A stretch of DNA of 10,191 bases from Bacilli bacterium (GTDB taxonomy: Bacteria > Bacillota_I > Bacilli_A > RF39 > UBA660), in assembly GCA_022793555.1 (NCBI GenBank), contig JAAWDB010000011.1, positions 1 to 10,191 of the forward strand. The letters run 5' to 3'. Of the stretch, positions 872 to 10,163 are shown in pieces. How positions within the stretch are numbered: position 1 is the first letter of the stretch; every line of letters starts with the position of its first letter. The position numbers and the translations under genes are program-made. The notes under the pieces were generated by a model. It searched no databases. It worked only from the letters and a program-made list of their open reading frames with translations, and had not been told where the DNA came from.

Positions 872-1060
872 CTATTTAACAAGAAAAAATAATACAACCA
901 ATGATAACAAACCTGGTATCCCTAAAAAAGCTACAGTTCCAACAGTAATACAATTAATAGGTATTAAAATACTTATCGAACTAACTAACAAATTAAAACC
1001 ATATAATACAAAAAAACCAATTACAATTTTTTTTATCAAGTTTATTATCATCTTTATCAT
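872..1060 (-). CDS. bofA: BofA-family small membrane protein (pro-sigma-K processing inhibitor family)
   Basis: A 62-residue, very hydrophobic protein with two predicted membrane segments (about residues 6-30 and 38-61) and a short basic N-terminus. The segment I-P-I-N-x-x-T-V-G-x-V-A-F-L-G-I-P-G (about 33-50) is the hallmark of the BofA family, where I-P-I-N-P-x-T and L-G-I-P-G are the conserved blocks. In Bacillus subtilis BofA sits in the outer forespore membrane with SpoIVFA and holds the SpoIVFB protease inactive, delaying sigma-K activation. GAGGG six nt upstream supports the ATG at 1060. It lies 38 bp after recR, the B. subtilis neighbourhood (recR-yaaL-bofA) but without yaaL. The family call is good; whether it acts in sporulation here cannot be seen. 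Confidence 0.82.
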   Translation of the reverse strand: MIKMIINLIKKIVIGFFVLYGFNLLVSSISILIPINCITVGTVAFLGIPGLLSLVVLFFLVK

Positions 1061-1098: not shown

Positions 1099-1701
1099 TT
1101 ATGAAGAAATCTGCTTACGATCATCTAAAGCTCTATCTAAAGTTATTGTATCAATATAATCGATTTCAGCTCCCATTGGTAACCCATAAGACAATCGTGA
1201 AATAACTACCTTTGTATCTTCAAAAATCTTCTTAATGTATAAAGTTGTAGTTTCTCCCTCAAGAGAAGATTTTAATGCTAAAATGATTTCTGGATTATCT
1301 AAACTATTAACTCTTTTAATCAAAGAAGATAAATTAATATCCTCTGCACCTATATTTTCCATAGGAGAAATCAAACCATTTAAGACATGATACACTCCAC
1401 GATAATTACCAACCTTTTCAAAAGAAAAAACATTTTTATAGTCTTCTACTACACAGATTATATTCCTATCTCGATTTTCATCCGAACATATAGTACAAAT
1501 ATCTCGATCAGTTAAATGTCCACATTGAATACAAGGATGCAAATCTTTTTTTACATTTTTCAATATTTCTGAAAAATCAATAAGTTCTTCTTCCTTAATA
1601 TCTAAAGTAGCAATAGCCAATCTTTCCGCACTTTTTTCACCAATCCCAGGTAATTTCATATAAAATTCAATTAACTTTTCGAATTTATCTGGATATATCA
1701 T
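1099..1701 (-). CDS. recR: Recombination mediator protein RecR
   Basis: A 200-aa protein of standard length. With RecO, and with RecF at double-strand/single-strand junctions, it helps load RecA onto SSB-coated gapped DNA. Domains in order: helix-hairpin-helix with L-P-G-I-G-x-K-S-A-x-R (17-27); C4 zinc finger (Cys57, 60, 69, 72); TOPRIM domain from about residue 80 with I-C-V-V-E (82-86) and G-x-Y-H-V-L-x-G-x-I-S-P (102-113); C-terminal S-R-L-S-Y-G-L-P-M-G (168-177) and the I-T-L-D-R-A-L tail. It starts 2 nt after the ybaB stop and has only a weak Shine-Dalgarno (GGGA), so translational coupling to ybaB is likely. RecF in this window is its pathway partner. Confidence 0.97.
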   Translation of the reverse strand: MIYPDKFEKLIEFYMKLPGIGEKSAERLAIATLDIKEEELIDFSEILKNVKKDLHPCIQCGHLTDRDICTICSDENRDRNIICVVEDYKNVFSFEKVGNYRGVYHVLNGLISPMENIGAEDINLSSLIKRVNSLDNPEIILALKSSLEGETTTLYIKKIFEDTKVVISRLSYGLPMGAEIDYIDTITLDRALDDRKQISS

Positions 1702-1703
1702 TA

Positions 1704-2003
1704 TTACATTATCCCATCAAGCATATTAGCATATGGACCCATTTTTTCTTGAAATGATTTTTCAATTTTATTCATTGCATCTTTTACAGCTAACGAAAAC
1801 ATATCTTCTAGCATTTCTTTATCATCTGAGGTAATATCTCCCTCAAATAATATTTTGACTGAAACCAATTCTTTTTTTCCATTAAATACAACTTCAACCC
1901 AATCTGATTTCCCGGGAAATAATTCTTGATTTAGCTCATCCTTCTTTTTTTGTAAATCTCTTTGCATTTTTTGTGCTTGCGCCATTATACTTTGCATATT
2001 CAT
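1704..2003 (-). CDS. ybaB: YbaB/EbfC nucleoid-associated protein
   Basis: A 99-aa member of the YbaB/EbfC family, small dimeric DNA-binding proteins almost always encoded between dnaX and recR, as here. The N-terminus M-x-x-I-M-A-Q-A-Q-K-M-Q is the typical charged helix; a three-stranded sheet with V-x-V-x-F-N-G-K-K-E-L-V-S-V-K-I follows, then a C-terminal helix. The loop that normally carries a G-x-A-G-G-G-like stretch reads F-P-G-K-S-D-W (29-35). That deviation is exactly where a perfect palindrome, ATTTCCCGGGAAAT, lies in the DNA (separate entry). AAGGA six nt upstream supports the ATG at 2003; a second in-frame ATG two codons later is less well placed. It starts 15 nt after dnaX and ends 2 nt before recR. 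Confidence 0.95.
   Translation of the reverse strand: MNMQSIMAQAQKMQRDLQKKKDELNQELFPGKSDWVEVVFNGKKELVSVKILFEGDITSDDKEMLEDMFSLAVKDAMNKIEKSFQEKMGPYANMLDGIM
1907..1920. promoter_or_regulatory. Noc binding site (NBS) inside ybaB
   Basis: ATTTCCCGGGAAAT is a perfect 14-bp palindrome identical to the consensus site described for Bacillus subtilis Noc, the nucleoid-occlusion protein related to ParB. It is the only CCCGGG I see in this AT-rich window and overlaps ybaB codons 29-33, in a variable loop of that protein. The match is direct; binding by a Noc homologue is inference and needs a noc gene elsewhere in the genome. Confidence 0.72.
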
Positions 2004-2018
2004 AGTTATTCCTTCTTT

Positions 2019-3650
2019 CTATATAATTTCTATTTTATCATGATCAAACAACTCTTGTGCAACTTTTTCCATTGAAGTGTCCTGATTTAAATCAGAAGTC
2101 TGTTCTACAATATCAGGTTCATCTAACATTTGATATTTAAAACCACTCTTAATTTTATTAACATATTCTTGCTTTTCTTTTTGCCATTCTTCTTCGCTTA
2201 AAGCAATGAAAGACAATTCCTGATTAAAAAATTCGCATAAATATTCTCCAATTTCTTGAATTCTTTTATTAATCAATATTGCCGTACTTTCTAAATTAGT
2301 TGAAATAATTACATTCGTATCAGATGCTGCCACAATATTTGAATCAACTAATAAATTAATAATATCATCAGGAATTGGAGAAATTGAAATTTCTTGCCAT
2401 AAATTTTTTAATTCAGTTAAATAGTTTTTTTGAGCTCCATAAAAGCAGTTATTAACTCTAACTTGTTTCAAGTCATTCATATAAGTAGATAAGTTATCTT
2501 CTGATACTTCTTTTATTGGCTCATCATGATTTTCCAAAACATCGGTCTGATGTTCAACAATGACTTCCTGAATTGGATCAGTAGTTTTAATTTGATTTAA
2601 TTTAGCATGAGTTAATTCATCTACAGAATTTTCAACATAGTTAAGAACTTCTAATTCTATTAAAGTATAAGGATTAATATTGATATTAACACGATTCATA
2701 CATTCATTAAGTGCAAATACTAAAGATTTAATTTGTTCATAACTTAAACTAGATGATTTATATTCAGTTTTTAGAGTTATTGCATATTGCACCAATTCTT
2801 GAATAAATTTTTTTATAAAAATTTTATAGTCACTGGAACTATTCTTTAATTCCTCAAATTGTTTTAAAATTTCCTCTACTTTATTATCTAAAATATTCTG
2901 AAACAATTTTTTTATAAAAATAGAAGAAATAGAACCATAACTTGATAATATATTTTCTATCGTAATTTCTTTTGCTGAAGATGAAAGCTGATCTAATAAA
3001 CTAAGAGCATCTCTCATTCCACCCTCCGAAATATAAGCAATTTCTTCCGCGGCTTCTAAAGAAATTTTAATATTTTCTTGTTCACAAACATAATTAATTT
3101 GAGAAATTAATTCATCCAAAGTAAACTTCTTAAAATCAAATCTCTGACAACGAGATAAAATTGTGATTGGCACACTTTCAATATTCGTAGTAGCCATAAT
3201 AAAAATAACATGAGCTGGCGGCTCTTCTAATGTTAATAACAAGGCATTAAAAGCACTTTGTGTCATCATATGAACTTCATCAATAATATAAATTTTATAT
3301 TTACTACTTGTTGGTGCTATTTTAACATTATTAATTAACTCTCTTACCTCATCAACACCATTATTTGAAGCAGCATCGATTTCAATAATATCCGCACTTG
3401 ATAAGAAATTTTTACAAGAATTACATTCTCCACATGCTTCTCCATCAATAGGATGCTCACAATTTATCGATTTAGCAAAAACTTTTGCTGTACTAGTCTT
3501 TCCTGTTCCTCGTGGACCAGTAAAAATATAAGCATGAGAAATCTTACCACTTTTTATAGCATTTTGTAACATTTTCTTAGAATAATCTTGTCCTATGATA
3601 TTTTTAAAGCTATCAGGACGATATTTTCGATAAAACACCTTATATTCCAT
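2019..3650 (-). CDS. dnaX: DNA polymerase III gamma/tau subunit
   Basis: Clamp-loader ATPase, about 543 aa from the ATG at 3650. Residues 1-12 hold the conserved Y-R-K-Y-R-P segment. Walker A is G-P-R-G-T-G-K-T (45-52), a zinc module has Cys64, 73, 76 and 79, Walker B is D-E-V-H (124-127), and S-R-C sits at 166-168. Sensor-2 helix S-E-G-G-M-R-D-A-L-S-L-L-D-Q (about 208-221) completes the AAA+ core; the collar domain follows to about 350, then a low-complexity linker and a tau-like C-terminal domain. The ATG at 3650 is chosen over a GTG at 3659 because that GTG lies inside the Shine-Dalgarno sequence AAGGTGATC. Its partner holB is four genes downstream. No functional gamma-producing frameshift is evident. 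Confidence 0.97.
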   Translation of the reverse strand: MEYKVFYRKYRPDSFKNIIGQDYSKKMLQNAIKSGKISHAYIFTGPRGTGKTSTAKVFAKSINCEHPIDGEACGECNSCKNFLSSADIIEIDAASNNGVDEVRELINNVKIAPTSSKYKIYIIDEVHMMTQSAFNALLLTLEEPPAHVIFIMATTNIESVPITILSRCQRFDFKKFTLDELISQINYVCEQENIKISLEAAEEIAYISEGGMRDALSLLDQLSSSAKEITIENILSSYGSISSIFIKKLFQNILDNKVEEILKQFEELKNSSSDYKIFIKKFIQELVQYAITLKTEYKSSSLSYEQIKSLVFALNECMNRVNININPYTLIELEVLNYVENSVDELTHAKLNQIKTTDPIQEVIVEHQTDVLENHDEPIKEVSEDNLSTYMNDLKQVRVNNCFYGAQKNYLTELKNLWQEISISPIPDDIINLLVDSNIVAASDTNVIISTNLESTAILINKRIQEIGEYLCEFFNQELSFIALSEEEWQKEKQEYVNKIKSGFKYQMLDEPDIVEQTSDLNQDTSMEKVAQELFDHDKIEII

Positions 3651-3653
3651 GGA

Positions 3654-3662
3654 GATCACCTT
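3654..3662 (-). promoter_or_regulatory. Ribosome binding site that decides the dnaX start
   Basis: AAGGTGATC on the minus strand shares its last seven bases with the anti-Shine-Dalgarno complement AGGAGGTGATC and precedes the ATG at 3650-3648. The in-frame GTG at 3659-3657 is part of this element, so it is unlikely to be the start codon. Confidence 0.7.
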
Positions 3663-4105: not shown

Positions 4106-4120
4106 ATAAATACCTCAATA

Positions 4121-4199
4121 AAAAAAGTGCACACAAATAGGGATTACATTGGCTGCTATCTTCCGATCCTGACCATTTTGTAATATATTTGTTGCACAT
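4121..4199 (-). ncRNA. ffs: Signal recognition particle RNA (small bacterial 4.5S type)
   Basis: The minus strand contains the diagnostic SRP helix 8: GGTCAGG, then ATC-GGAA-GAT (a GNRA tetraloop with closing stem), then AGCAGCC, which together bind Ffh. The flanks pair: TTACA with TGTAA, and an outer helix of GTGCA plus ACAAATA with TATTTGT plus TGCAC, with a single bulged G. The RNA is thus about 73 nt before a T6 tract, at the small end for bacteria and without an Alu domain. Outer helix plus T-run looks like an intrinsic terminator forming the 3' end. The end of the T-run is 15 nt before the tadA ATG, so tadA would need read-through. In B. subtilis scr lies between tadA and dnaX; here it precedes tadA. 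The 5' end is inferred from the promoter. Confidence 0.93.
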
Positions 4200-4203
4200 A
4201 TAG

Positions 4204-4232
4204 ATATTAACAGAAAAAAAGATAATTATCAA
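4204..4232 (-). promoter_or_regulatory. Sigma-A promoter of the SRP RNA gene
   Basis: On the minus strand, TTGATA (4232-4227) and TAATAT (4209-4204) are separated by exactly 17 nt. Transcription would begin at about 4199-4197, which is where the outer SRP RNA helix starts, so element and product agree. The -35 overlaps one copy of the 13-nt parS-associated box and lies 10 bp from a parS palindrome. Confidence 0.75.
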
Positions 4233-4242
4233 CTATTATTCT

Positions 4243-4260
4243 ATGTTCCACGTGGAACAT
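4243..4260. promoter_or_regulatory. parS site 1 (ParB/Spo0J binding)
   Basis: The core TGTTCCACGTGGAACA (4244-4259) is a perfect palindrome. It differs from the widespread parS TGTTTCACGTGAAACA only by a symmetric T-to-C/A-to-G pair. This copy lies 10 bp upstream of the -35 of the SRP RNA promoter and 3 bp from a perfect DnaA box. Confidence 0.88.
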
Positions 4261-4262
4261 AT

Positions 4263-4271
4263 TTATCCACA
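4263..4271 (+). promoter_or_regulatory. DnaA box
   Basis: TTATCCACA is the exact consensus DnaA box, 3 bp from the core of parS site 1. Looser matches occur nearby: TTTTTCACA at 4357-4365, ATATACACA at 4448-4456 and TTATCAACA at 4629-4637. One perfect box does not make an origin; it may regulate, titrate DnaA, or be a remnant of an origin-proximal region. Confidence 0.5.
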
Positions 4272-4313
4272 AGTCATATAAATCAAAATATAAGTACTTT
4301 AAATATATATTAA

Positions 4314-4337
4314 AAAAAGACATTAAAAAGTCTTTTT
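4314..4337 (-). terminator. Bidirectional terminator-like hairpin
   Basis: AAAAAGAC (4314-4321) pairs with GTCTTTTT (4330-4337) around an 8-nt loop, with T-rich sequence at the 3' side on both strands (T7 on the minus strand). Only two stem pairs are G-C, so it would be weak. It could end transcripts leaving gyrA before they reach the SRP RNA promoter. Confidence 0.35.
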
Positions 4338-4416
4338 ATTAGAAAAATACACAGAGTTTTTCACAAAAAAATAAATATTTAACTATAAATATTCAATTCA
4401 TCAATAGTTATAAACA

Positions 4417-4442
4417 TTCTATGTTCCACGTGGAACATAGAA
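4417..4442. promoter_or_regulatory. parS site 2 (ParB/Spo0J binding)
   Basis: The same 16-bp core as site 1 lies at 4422-4437, and palindromy extends to 26 bp. The 24 bases 4416-4439 are identical to 4238-4261 around site 1, which suggests that the two sites are related by duplication. The cores of sites 1 and 2 start 178 bp apart. Confidence 0.88.
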
Positions 4443-4641
4443 ACTTAATATACACAAAAAAAATATTTTTCGTTAAATATTATGAAATTAGCTTTATAAA
4501 TAAAATTTATGATAGTAACAATAATAGAAACAAATTCTAATGTTTTTATTTTATTAAACTACAAAAATCCAAAAATATTTGCTAGTTATATACCAAAAGT
4601 CGTATATAATGCATTTATTTAAAAATAGTTATCAACAAACA

Positions 4642-4667
4642 AAGAATGTTCCACGTGGAACATTCTT
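4642..4667. promoter_or_regulatory. parS site 3, overlapping the gyrA stop codon
   Basis: The 16-bp parS core lies at 4647-4662 within a 26-bp perfect palindrome. Its outermost bases are the last two bases of the gyrA TAA codon (4668-4666). As RNA from the gyrA side it would fold into a strong hairpin followed by a U-rich tract, so it may also act as the gyrA terminator. Confidence 0.88.
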
Positions 4668-7137
4668 ATTTATTTTCATTATTTGTAATATCGTCATTCG
4701 ATTCAATTTCATTATTTTCCAAATTTTCTTCATGTGCAACTAAGCTAATAGTTGAAACCAATTGATCATTTTTTAAATGAATTAAACGAACACCTTGCGT
4801 AACTCTACCTAAAACGGAGACTTGATCAAGAGGCATACGAATTAACATACCCGTATTAGTGATTATTATAACATCTTGATTCTCTTTAACTACTTTAAAT
4901 GCAGAAATACTTCCATTCTTTTCTGTTACATTTAGAGCTTTAACACCTTTACTACCACGTTTAGTGCCTCTATATTCACGAACATTTGTTTGTTTTCCGT
5001 AACCTTTCTCAGTTACAATTAACACTTTATCATCATCAGTGGCAATTTCTGAACCAACACAAGTTGCATCTCCCAAATTAATACCTCTTACTCCAGTTGC
5101 TGTTCTACCCATTACTCTTAGTTCATTTTCATCAAATTTAACCATTCTACCAGCACTAGATCCTAATAATATTAAATTGTCACCTGTAGTCTTCTTAACA
5201 GCAATCAACTCATCATTATCACGTAAATTAATACATATTTTACCAGAAGTTCTTATATTATCAAATTCATTAATAGCTGTTTTCTTAACAATACCATTTT
5301 TCGTAACAAATAATAGATATTTATAATCATGATCATTACTAATATTTATAACACTATTAATCATTTCATCCTTTTCAATTTGTAAAAGATTAATTATTGG
5401 TAAACCTTTGGATTGTCTACTAAACTCAGGAATCTCATAGCCTTTTAATCGATAAACCTTACCTTTATTCGTAAAGAACAAAGCATAATCATGTGTGGAT
5501 AAGTTAACTAAATGCTCAACGAAATCTTCTTCATTCGTTCCCATTCCTTTAACACCTACACCTCCACGATTTTGAGCCTTAAATGTATCTACAGTAGTAC
5601 GTTTAATATAACCTTTATTCGTTAATGCAATCATAATATTTTCTACAGGAATTAACGACTCATCTTCAATATACTCAATAGCTGTCATATCAATATTAGT
5701 TCGACGTTCATCAGCATATTTATTCTTAATTTCTAACAATTCATCTTTAATAATTGCTAACACTTTTTCCTCACTCGCTAAAATAGATTGCAATTCTTCG
5801 ATTGTTTTTAATAAATCTGATAACTCATTTTCTATCTTTTCACGTTCTAATCCCGTCAAGCGACGTAATTTCATCTCTAAAATAGCATTTGCCTGAATAT
5901 CATCTAAACCAAATCTCTGCATTAATTGTTCTTTTGCGATAACATCAGTCTTAGACTCACGAATAATCTTAATTACTTCATCTAAATGATCTAAAGCAAT
6001 CTTTAAACCCTCTAAAATATGTACACGTTCTTGAGCCTTCTTCAAATCATATTGAGTTCGACGAATAATAATTTCTTTTTGATAATCAATATATTTCGAA
6101 ATAATATCTTTTAATGGTAAAATCTTAGGTGTTTGCTGATCTAACATTAAAAAATTAATACCAAACGTTGTTTGTAACTGTGTATGTTTGTATAAATTAT
6201 TAAGTACCACGTTCGCATTGGCATCTCTTTTCAAATAAATAACTACACGAACAGGATTCTCCAAATTTGACTCTTCATGTAATTCACTGATACCGTCAAT
6301 AATTTTATCTCGTACAAGTTCTCCAATTCGTGATTGAAATTCTGCCTTATTAACTTGGTAAGGTAACTCTGTAACGATAATTCGAGACTTACCATTACCT
6401 TCCTCAATTTCCACTTTTCCACGAATAGTAATAGATCCACGACCAGTCTCATAAGCCTTTTTAATTCCACTATTTCCCAAAATAGTAGCACCTGTAGGAA
6501 AATCAGGACCTTTAATAAATTGCATTAACTCTTCAGTAGTGATTTCATGATTATCGATATATGCTACACAACCATCAATAACCTCACCCAAATTATGTGG
6601 AGGAATATTGGTTGCCATTCCAACAGCAATACCCATCGTACCATTAACCAAAATATTAGGAAATCTACTAGGTAAAATATCTGGTTCCTTTTCCGTTTCA
6701 TCAAAATTCGCACTAAAATTTACAGTTTCTTTATTAATATCTCGAACCATTTCAAGTGACAATTTAGACAAGCGTGCTTCGGTATAACGCATTGCTGCTG
6801 CACCATCGCCATCCATATTTCCAAAATTTCCATGACCATCCACTAACATATGACGAAAACTAAATGGCTGTGCCATACGAACCATAGCATCATAAATGGA
6901 AGAATCACCATGAGGATGGTATTTTCCCATAACATCTCCAACAATTCTTGCACTCTTACGATGCGGTTTATCTGGTGTATAACTAGATTCATACATAGAA
7001 TACAAAATACGACGATGAACGGGTTTTAATCCATCACGTAAATCAGGCAAAGCACGAGCAGTTATTACACTCATAGCATAATCTAAAAACGAATCTTTTA
7101 CTTCATCTACAATATTATTTTCAATTATTCTATCCAT
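4666..7137 (-). CDS. gyrA: DNA gyrase subunit A
   Basis: Breakage-reunion subunit of gyrase, which introduces negative supercoils ahead of replication and transcription. It has 823 aa, normal for the family. The winged-helix region holds the catalytic tyrosine ([10 protein letters not shown], Tyr118). The quinolone region [10 protein letters not shown] (74-83) has Ser79 and Asp83 where E. coli has Ser83 and Asp87, so it looks wild type. After the coiled coil (about 355-480) comes the C-terminal beta-pinwheel, with six degenerate repeats and an acidic, Asn-rich tail. The GyrA box reads Q-N-R-G-G-V-G (522-528), with Val where a basic residue is usual. The start is set by GGAGG seven nt upstream, overlapping the gyrB stop. 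Gene order and the box, though altered, favour GyrA over ParC. Confidence 0.97.
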
Positions 7138-7147
7138 ACTCTACCTC

Positions 7148-10163
<3,016 letters not shown>

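Follow-up and report, generated by a model that had tools for sequence, protein, structure and literature searches.

Predicted Noc-binding sites clustered near the replication origin, one of them within ybaB, in a family of Bacilli

The palindrome and its gene neighbourhood

The window, by which we mean the whole stretch of 10,191 nucleotides analysed here (29.3% GC), comes from a Bacilli bacterium whose assembly (GCA_022793555.1) comprises 1.03 Mb in 161 contigs and is 70% complete. Its features are collected in Table 1. The ybaB product is a YbaB/EbfC nucleoid-associated protein of 99 aa (PF02575, E 7e-20; TIGR00103, over the cut-off), and three copies of parS (TGTTCCACGTGGAACA), whose consensus is TGTTTCAC-GTGAAACA (PMC7383237), lie between the small SRP RNA gene and gyrA. 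A 62-aa membrane protein encoded between holB and recR (872-1060, minus strand) matches BofA (PF07441, E 2.6e-12). BofA regulates sporulation sigma-K processing, and a BofA-like gene is notable in a host lineage with small genomes.

Table 1. Coordinates of features in the window
Feature	Position	Strand	Remarks
recR	1099..1701	-	Neighbourhood marker; name read from sequence
ybaB	1704..2003	-	Hosts the site in its F-P-G-K-S loop
Noc-binding site (NBS), predicted	1907..1920	.	Exact 14-mer ATTTCCCGGGAAAT
dnaX	2019..3659	-	Name read from sequence; tblastn query; NBS host in relatives, none here
tadA-gyrA gap	4106..4665	.	Small SRP RNA gene, then parS cluster; NBS interleaved with parS here in relatives
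Small SRP RNA gene	4110..4206	-	RF00169, 57.5 bits against a gathering score of 40
parS copy 1, TGTTCCACGTGGAACA	4244..4259	.	parS consensus match
parS copy 2	4422..4437	.	parS consensus match
parS copy 3	4647..4662	.	parS consensus match
gyrA	4666..7137	-	Marker, oriC side; name read from sequence
gyrB	7148..9070	-	Marker, oriC side; name read from sequence

The ybaB codons TTA TTT CCC GGG AAA TCA, which encode L-F-P-G-K-S, enclose an exact 14-bp palindrome, the sole match that the window contains when as many as three mismatches are allowed. As the preliminary description had stated, it agrees at all 14 positions with the published Noc consensus; of the published 16-mer TATTTCCCGGGAAATA, given as TATTTCCC-GGGAAATA in Jalal 2020 (PMC7383237), it retains 15 positions, with G for T on one side. 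The number of exact 14-mers expected per window is 2.5e-5 under independent bases and 3.8e-5 under a first-order Markov model, in keeping with the earlier estimate of a chance far below 1 in 1000. The whole assembly holds three exact copies and no one-mismatch copy; the other two lie at C4:1090, in a methyltransferase gene that is weakly TrmN-like, and at C4:7068, in metG.

The preliminary description had further held that the usual glycine-rich YbaB loop reads F-P-G-K here, as if the DNA site had shaped the protein. F-P-G-K is indeed the reading in the window, but the wording was loose: among the 14 genes parsed (of 30 loci), 13 have (F/Y)-x-G and one, in genome G039, has F-K-A-S. An influence of the site on the protein is plausible for x = P, which occurs in three parsed site-bearing ybaB genes and also in the site-bearing G032, and for the uncommon codons CCC (4% of Pro codons) and GGG (7% of Gly codons); most relatives, however, keep an F-x-G-K-like loop without the site.

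A site within ybaB was found in 4 of 65 regions, three of them among the five same-genus ybaB genes read (G000, G001 and G002) and the fourth in another genus (G032). In the two remaining same-genus genes (G003 and G006), the alignment has TTT AC[AT] GGA AAA at the site codons, for example TTT ACA GGA AAA, and the sites of these genomes stand elsewhere in the same neighbourhood. The ybaB location is not conserved among relatives, and we discarded the idea of a site specific to ybaB and maintained there. The copy in ybaB was probably gained recently, at one among several interchangeable positions, and the YbaB protein loop looks like a ready scaffold for the site rather than its cause.

Noc and its sites across the family

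Two genes of the window genome encode a ParB N-terminal domain. The ParB gene proper (296 aa, contig C75) adjoins a ParA-like gene, forming a Soj/ParB pair, while the Noc-type gene (405 aa, contig C105) lies directly downstream of mnmE-mnmG-rsmG (Pfam-confirmed), a position distinct from soj-parB that recurs at locus L250. In B. subtilis, noc stands beside rsmG-mnmG as well. When aligned to solved Noc and ParB proteins, the Noc-type protein carries Q/K/N/R at residues 173/179/184/201, which is the NBS type, and ParB carries R/M/T/G, the parS type. According to Jalal 2020 (PMC7383237), the set QKKR reads NBS and RTAG reads parS, a single lysine at 179 or 184 is enough, and residue 173 reads the first NBS base. 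The paralogue of parB that the preliminary description had predicted is therefore present and has NBS-type recognition residues.

The Noc-type protein contains PF02195 (ParB_N) and PF17762 (HTH_ParB) domains, and its best sequence matches in the PDB are the solved Noc structures 7ng0 and 7nfu. Its AlphaFold model finds 7nfu as the first fold match and fits the NBS-bound DNA-binding domain 6y93 at 1.3-1.7 A. Against the NCBIfam Noc model TIGR04285 it scores 291.4 bits, below the curated cut-off of 315, and the ParB of the same genome scores 227.2. Seven ParB proteins could be read from nine loci tried; R173 is present in all seven, and residue 201 is G in five and S in two. Genome G014 has five ParB-family matches, three of which are weak, lie on other contigs and possibly represent plasmid or prophage partition genes.

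The 117 related genomes include 70 from the same family as the window (f1). Of these, 63 carry the exact 14-mer, as do 3 of the 47 others; the reversed palindrome, our control throughout, occurs in none of the 117. A second, class-wide draw of 394 genomes, which partly overlaps the first, gave a similar picture (55/63 in f1, 14/331 in others, control 1/394). The excess anticipated earlier is hence strong in f1. The 65 fetched regions (the window and 64 others) contain 101 exact sites, of which 90 show the complete 16-mer, 11 are one-sided, including the window ybaB copy, and none lacks both outer bases. The outer base, which was outside the search, is accordingly T/A in 191 of 202 half-sites.

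A Noc-type protein was detected in 67 of the 70 f1 genomes. The other three (G017, G031 and G069; 69, 91 and 95% complete) have the site but only a ParB-size match and no Noc-type match. We fetched 66 of the 67 Noc loci and parsed 65; the parser required R201, and none was dropped for lacking it. Q173 is found in 64 of these proteins, K179 in 63 and R201 in all 65, and the unparsed Noc of G024 reads Q/K/D/R by eye. Two Noc proteins (G029 and G051) are without lysine at both 179 and 184, a class that is reported as non-functional in a Caulobacter ParB background (Jalal 2020, PMC7383237), yet their genomes carry an exact site.

Three f1 genomes are without a site at up to one mismatch. In two of them, Noc has Q173/K179/R201, and the assembly has no ybaB match (G024) or the contig ends in the region (G034), so that only the third, G039, is informative on site loss. 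There the region is fully assembled, and the Noc is the only one read in which residue 173 is changed (Q to V). This covariation of V173 with the absence of an NBS is a single case and suggestive. A new motif for the altered Noc was sought in 20 kb; apart from nine copies of a parS variant, described below, no perfect 14-bp palindrome with at least four G/C was found. Judged by sequence, the palindrome of the window is very likely a true NBS.

The sites are confined to the vicinity of the origin. We listed 149 exact sites from 63 genomes (17 of the 20 sites of G028 among them), and 133 share a contig with ybaB or noc; 104 of these lie within 5 kb of either gene, 113 within 10 kb and 132 within 20 kb. 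The lone far site belongs to G021 and is about 102 kb from ybaB; a one-mismatch site of this genome is about 35 kb from noc. The other 16 listed sites are on contigs without ybaB or noc and include the two C4 sites of the window genome, for which the matching positions in same-genus relatives fall some 3 and 8 kb away from ybaB. A site at up to one mismatch occurs within 10 kb of ybaB in 59 of 65 genomes with ybaB located (the exceptions are G012, G019, G029, G034, G039 and G049). Genomes having any exact site have a median of two; most f1 genomes hold one to a few sites, the highest number being 20 (these are incomplete MAGs).

Where ybaB and noc share a contig, as they do in 29 genomes, 17.6-24.8 kb separates them. 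In G002, a genome of the same genus as the window's, the blocks dnaA-dnaN and rnpA-yidC-jag-mnmE-mnmG-rsmG-noc diverge (jag was read from sequence), and oriC therefore probably lies between them. Relative to dnaA, ybaB is 12.1 kb away, which agrees with the earlier prediction of an origin-proximal site; the two exact sites are at 12 and 15 kb, a one-mismatch site is at 20 kb and parS is at 9.3-9.7 kb, with noc 6.6 kb away on the other side.

Host genes, parS units and the anatomy of Noc

At up to one mismatch, the 65 regions hold 131 sites, 66 within genes and 65 intergenic. Besides ybaB, recurring hosts are dnaX, the TrmN-like gene, metG and a further gene, coding for about 280 aa, which we take for rsmI from its R-E-[IL]-[ST]-K motif. 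The dnaX sites occupy differing positions and frames and give the peptides ISRE or FPGN. Of 42 aligned copies of the rsmI-like gene, 16 agree in every letter of ATT TCC CGG GAA ATA, with variation setting in at the following codon, and the arginine codon is CGG in 19 of the 42, compared with 2.0% of 11,282 arginine codons in the same regions. All five third positions are fixed across 16 genera, which argues for constraint at the DNA level in this gene, although shared ancestry of the 16 aligned copies may contribute as well. The rsmI-like gene would then show clearly how a DNA site bound by a protein can persist within coding sequence across many genera.

Many sites keep company with parS. In the window the NBS is 2.3 kb from the nearest parS, and the window genome has no composite unit; in relatives, the tadA-gyrA gap holds NBS as well. 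Overall, 57 of the 131 sites, in 26 of the 65 genomes, lie within 150 bp of a parS, as against 6.0 sites on average and never more than 19 when sites were moved within their regions (1000 trials). Scanning parS with N instead of Y/R at the variable base gave identical counts (57/131 and 26/65). Members of several genera have NBS and parS in alternation, at a fixed distance between their centres: 44-46 bp in G020 (8/8), 58 bp in G059 (4/4), 35-36 bp in G064 (4/4), 59-60 bp in G062 (3/3) and 29-30 bp at four array sites of G028. Mean spacer identity within an array is 0.61-0.65 in G020, G064, G062 and G028 and 0.88 in G059; the spacers are thus related but mostly diverged, their length having been kept as the letters changed. 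These arrays arose in part by duplication of units. Two G064 units are identical, one of them abutting an N run, and two identical G059 units lie at a contig end, so these counts may include assembly duplicates.

For every Noc homologue examined in Adams 2015 (PMC4331003), an N-terminal amphipathic membrane helix has been predicted. In the f1 proteins, 15-39 residues (median 17; at most 27 in 62 of 65) precede the conserved core when counted from the first possible start codon, and the values of 36-39 in G009, G012 and G016 apply only if an upstream TTG is used. In the alignment, residue 5 of the window genome's Noc stands opposite residue 26-28 of the Noc chains from Geobacillus and B. subtilis. 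From these two observations, we conclude that the N-terminal helix is absent. Its loss is not unique to f1, since N-termini are short in families f9 and f19 too (10 of 17 fetched other-family loci parsed); three f11 proteins combine a short N-terminus with FSFFS or FNIF.

Past the DNA-binding core, the 65 Noc proteins (L051-L080, L214-L249) extend for 118-499 residues, and in the AlphaFold model a long low-confidence linker joins the HTH to a C-terminal domain that is predicted to be alpha-beta-beta. One or two FF motifs stand out in the linkers amid sequence of otherwise low conservation. The motif [KR]FF is present in 33 of 65 linkers, with a mean of 1.9 and a maximum of 8 in 2000 shuffles, and is missing from the other 32, among which G027, G048 and G051 have FF without a preceding K/R. 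Its usual form is [NG][KR]FFN, after which come F or L and acidic residues, as in NKFFNFLEDEAANM of the window genome's Noc. This is the same tripeptide as residues 7-9 of the B. subtilis helix, where mutants name R7, F8 and F9 (Adams 2015, PMC4331003). The model gives the motif no placement (pLDDT about 48-51). On the strength of this resemblance, we hypothesise that a membrane motif may have moved from the N-terminus into the linker, where [KR]FF might contact the membrane.

MinC (PF03775) was found in none of the 70 f1 genomes and in 1 of all 117 (family f13), and the control search has matches in B. subtilis. The combined loss of Min and Noc blocks division in B. subtilis (PMC5540599), and Noc may therefore matter more in f1.

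What the origin-confined sites may do

At the sequence level, the preliminary prediction of Noc was right and its emphasis on ybaB was wrong. It is likely that the palindrome is one of few Noc sites in a compact cluster beside oriC and near parS, and that these sites act through a Noc clamp. A Noc dimer would nucleate on each NBS, become a CTP-dependent sliding clamp on DNA and coat some kilobases around the origin, beside the ParB-parS complex. Within this one origin-proximal locus, ParB would drive segregation and Noc would mark or anchor the origin region, possibly keeping division or re-initiation away from it. As for the nucleoid-occlusion system foreseen in the preliminary description, the noc gene and its sites exist; occlusion itself would be a further step, and as the sites are origin-confined and the N-terminal helix that B. 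subtilis requires is missing, the output of Noc may instead be origin-specific.

A bolder form of this reading, which we put forward tentatively and hold to be somewhat doubtful, is that the locus may have become, or may always have been, a dual centromere. Composite units of NBS and parS would load two CTP clamps, the Noc membrane motif would have moved to [NG][KR]FFN in the disordered linker, and, as no MinC was found, the locus might carry the known division placement.

Noc at origin-flanking sites might alternatively restrain DnaA, with effects on division being secondary. S. aureus Noc also controls replication initiation: noc mutants there initiate too often, and dnaA has a minor Noc site next to it (PMC5540599). 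All three sites of G002, two exact and one with a mismatch, are within about 20 kb of dnaA. On balance we regard initiation control as the main role as unlikely.

Slightly less probable still is a second centromere in which Noc, bound at NBS, would act like ParB as an adaptor for segregation or SMC loading, with no membrane or division contact left. The median of 17 residues before the core in 65 proteins, leaving no N-terminal membrane helix, would suit such a role, as would NBS interleaved with parS arrays in short origin-proximal clusters that resemble parS. However, the linker [KR]FF resembles the B. subtilis membrane-helix residues, and none of the Noc N-termini inspected has the GKGL-type ParA-binding motif that is found near the N-terminus of the seven ParB proteins read.

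Occlusion as in B. subtilis, in which the perfect sites near the origin would merely be the strongest and weaker degenerate sites across the chromosome would act spatially, appears improbable in f1. About 70 Noc loci are reported in B. subtilis (PMC4726725) and 41 in S. aureus (PMC5540599), and the dispersed mode of these two species is seen in other Bacilli families: in 15 Noc-bearing genomes, a search tolerating two mismatches gives 7-24 sites (0-15 for the control), few of which are exact, and the count exceeds the control in each of the 15. These sites are spread over contigs in the four genomes listed, and the five and six exact sites of G123 and G413 are all on different contigs among the matches listed. 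In f1, by contrast, a search of the window genome that tolerates three mismatches gives 35 sites for the palindrome and 48 for the control, hence no excess of degenerate sites. At up to two mismatches, 38 of the 70 f1 genomes together have 199 sites, 90 exact and 109 inexact, the latter against 83 for the control, indicating that a dispersed degenerate set is small or absent. Further, 28 of 34 one-mismatch sites can be anchored by ybaB or noc on their own contig, in every case at a distance of no more than 20 kb. The expectation of many sites dispersed over the origin-proximal chromosome does not describe f1, where they cluster near ybaB or noc, and dispersed degenerate sites were rejected for want of more than a slight excess over control in these searches. 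Origin clustering is not unique to f1, as three exact sites lie within about 5 kb of noc in G096 (family f17).

That some other palindrome-binding regulator owns the site, with noc a bystander, is highly improbable: the 65 intergenic sites of 131 are operator-like, but the match extends to the published 16-mer including unsearched bases, the Noc specificity residues fit, the sites are origin-confined, residue 173 covaries in G039 and half of the sites are inside genes. Chance, or F-P-G-K codons that happen to spell the 14-mer, has a negligible probability and was rejected, since the F-x-G-K loop common in the family's YbaB supplies some letters but the expectation per window, the family excess, the same DNA under different peptides and frames (ISRE, FPGK, FPGN) and the rsmI-like codon data all speak against it.

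Returning to the clamp reading, the f1 system resembles B. subtilis Noc-NBS in its ParB paralogue, the same 14/16-bp palindrome, residues 173/179/201 and the ParB_N fold, and differs from it in having few sites near oriC, no N-terminal helix and a long linker after the HTH (compare PMC4726725). With S. aureus Noc it shares the core consensus and the bias towards the origin; all but one of the 41 S. aureus loci lie between -700 and +700 kb, whereas f1 has a compact cluster partly interleaved with parS (PMC5540599). Like a ParB-parS centromere, it has short palindromes clustered near oriC, in some genomes as tandem arrays, but its sequence and reader residues differ, and these genomes have ParB and parS of their own besides. 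What is new is the layout: few, near-perfect, origin-confined NBS, partly interleaved with parS, together with a Noc that has no N-terminal helix. We found no report of such a layout in the consulted portions of the open-licence literature, including PMC5540599, PMC4726725, PMC7383237, PMC8429893, PMC4331003, PMC6852036 and PMC12704722.

Noc is known from organisms with dozens of dispersed sites, in which position and number are hard to separate. The family f1 would offer a natural minimal version, with one or a few origin sites adjoining parS or alternating with it, no MinC found and no N-terminal helix. It makes testable whether Noc needs dispersed sites, whether its clamp and that of ParB are cooperative or mutually exclusive, how Noc sites came about once noc had arisen from parB, and whether the place of a membrane motif within a protein can change.

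The parS arrays of some relatives are of interest in themselves. In the tadA-gyrA gap, G035 (L200, about 11486-11837) has 10 and G031 (L167) 13 parS copies at 37-39 bp spacing, which are unusually many for a chromosomal parS cluster. The same gap in G039 (L177, 7557-8572) contains nine copies of a parS variant, TGTTACACGTGTAACA, at 106-186 bp spacing, and the letters of the window's small SRP RNA recur next to this array.
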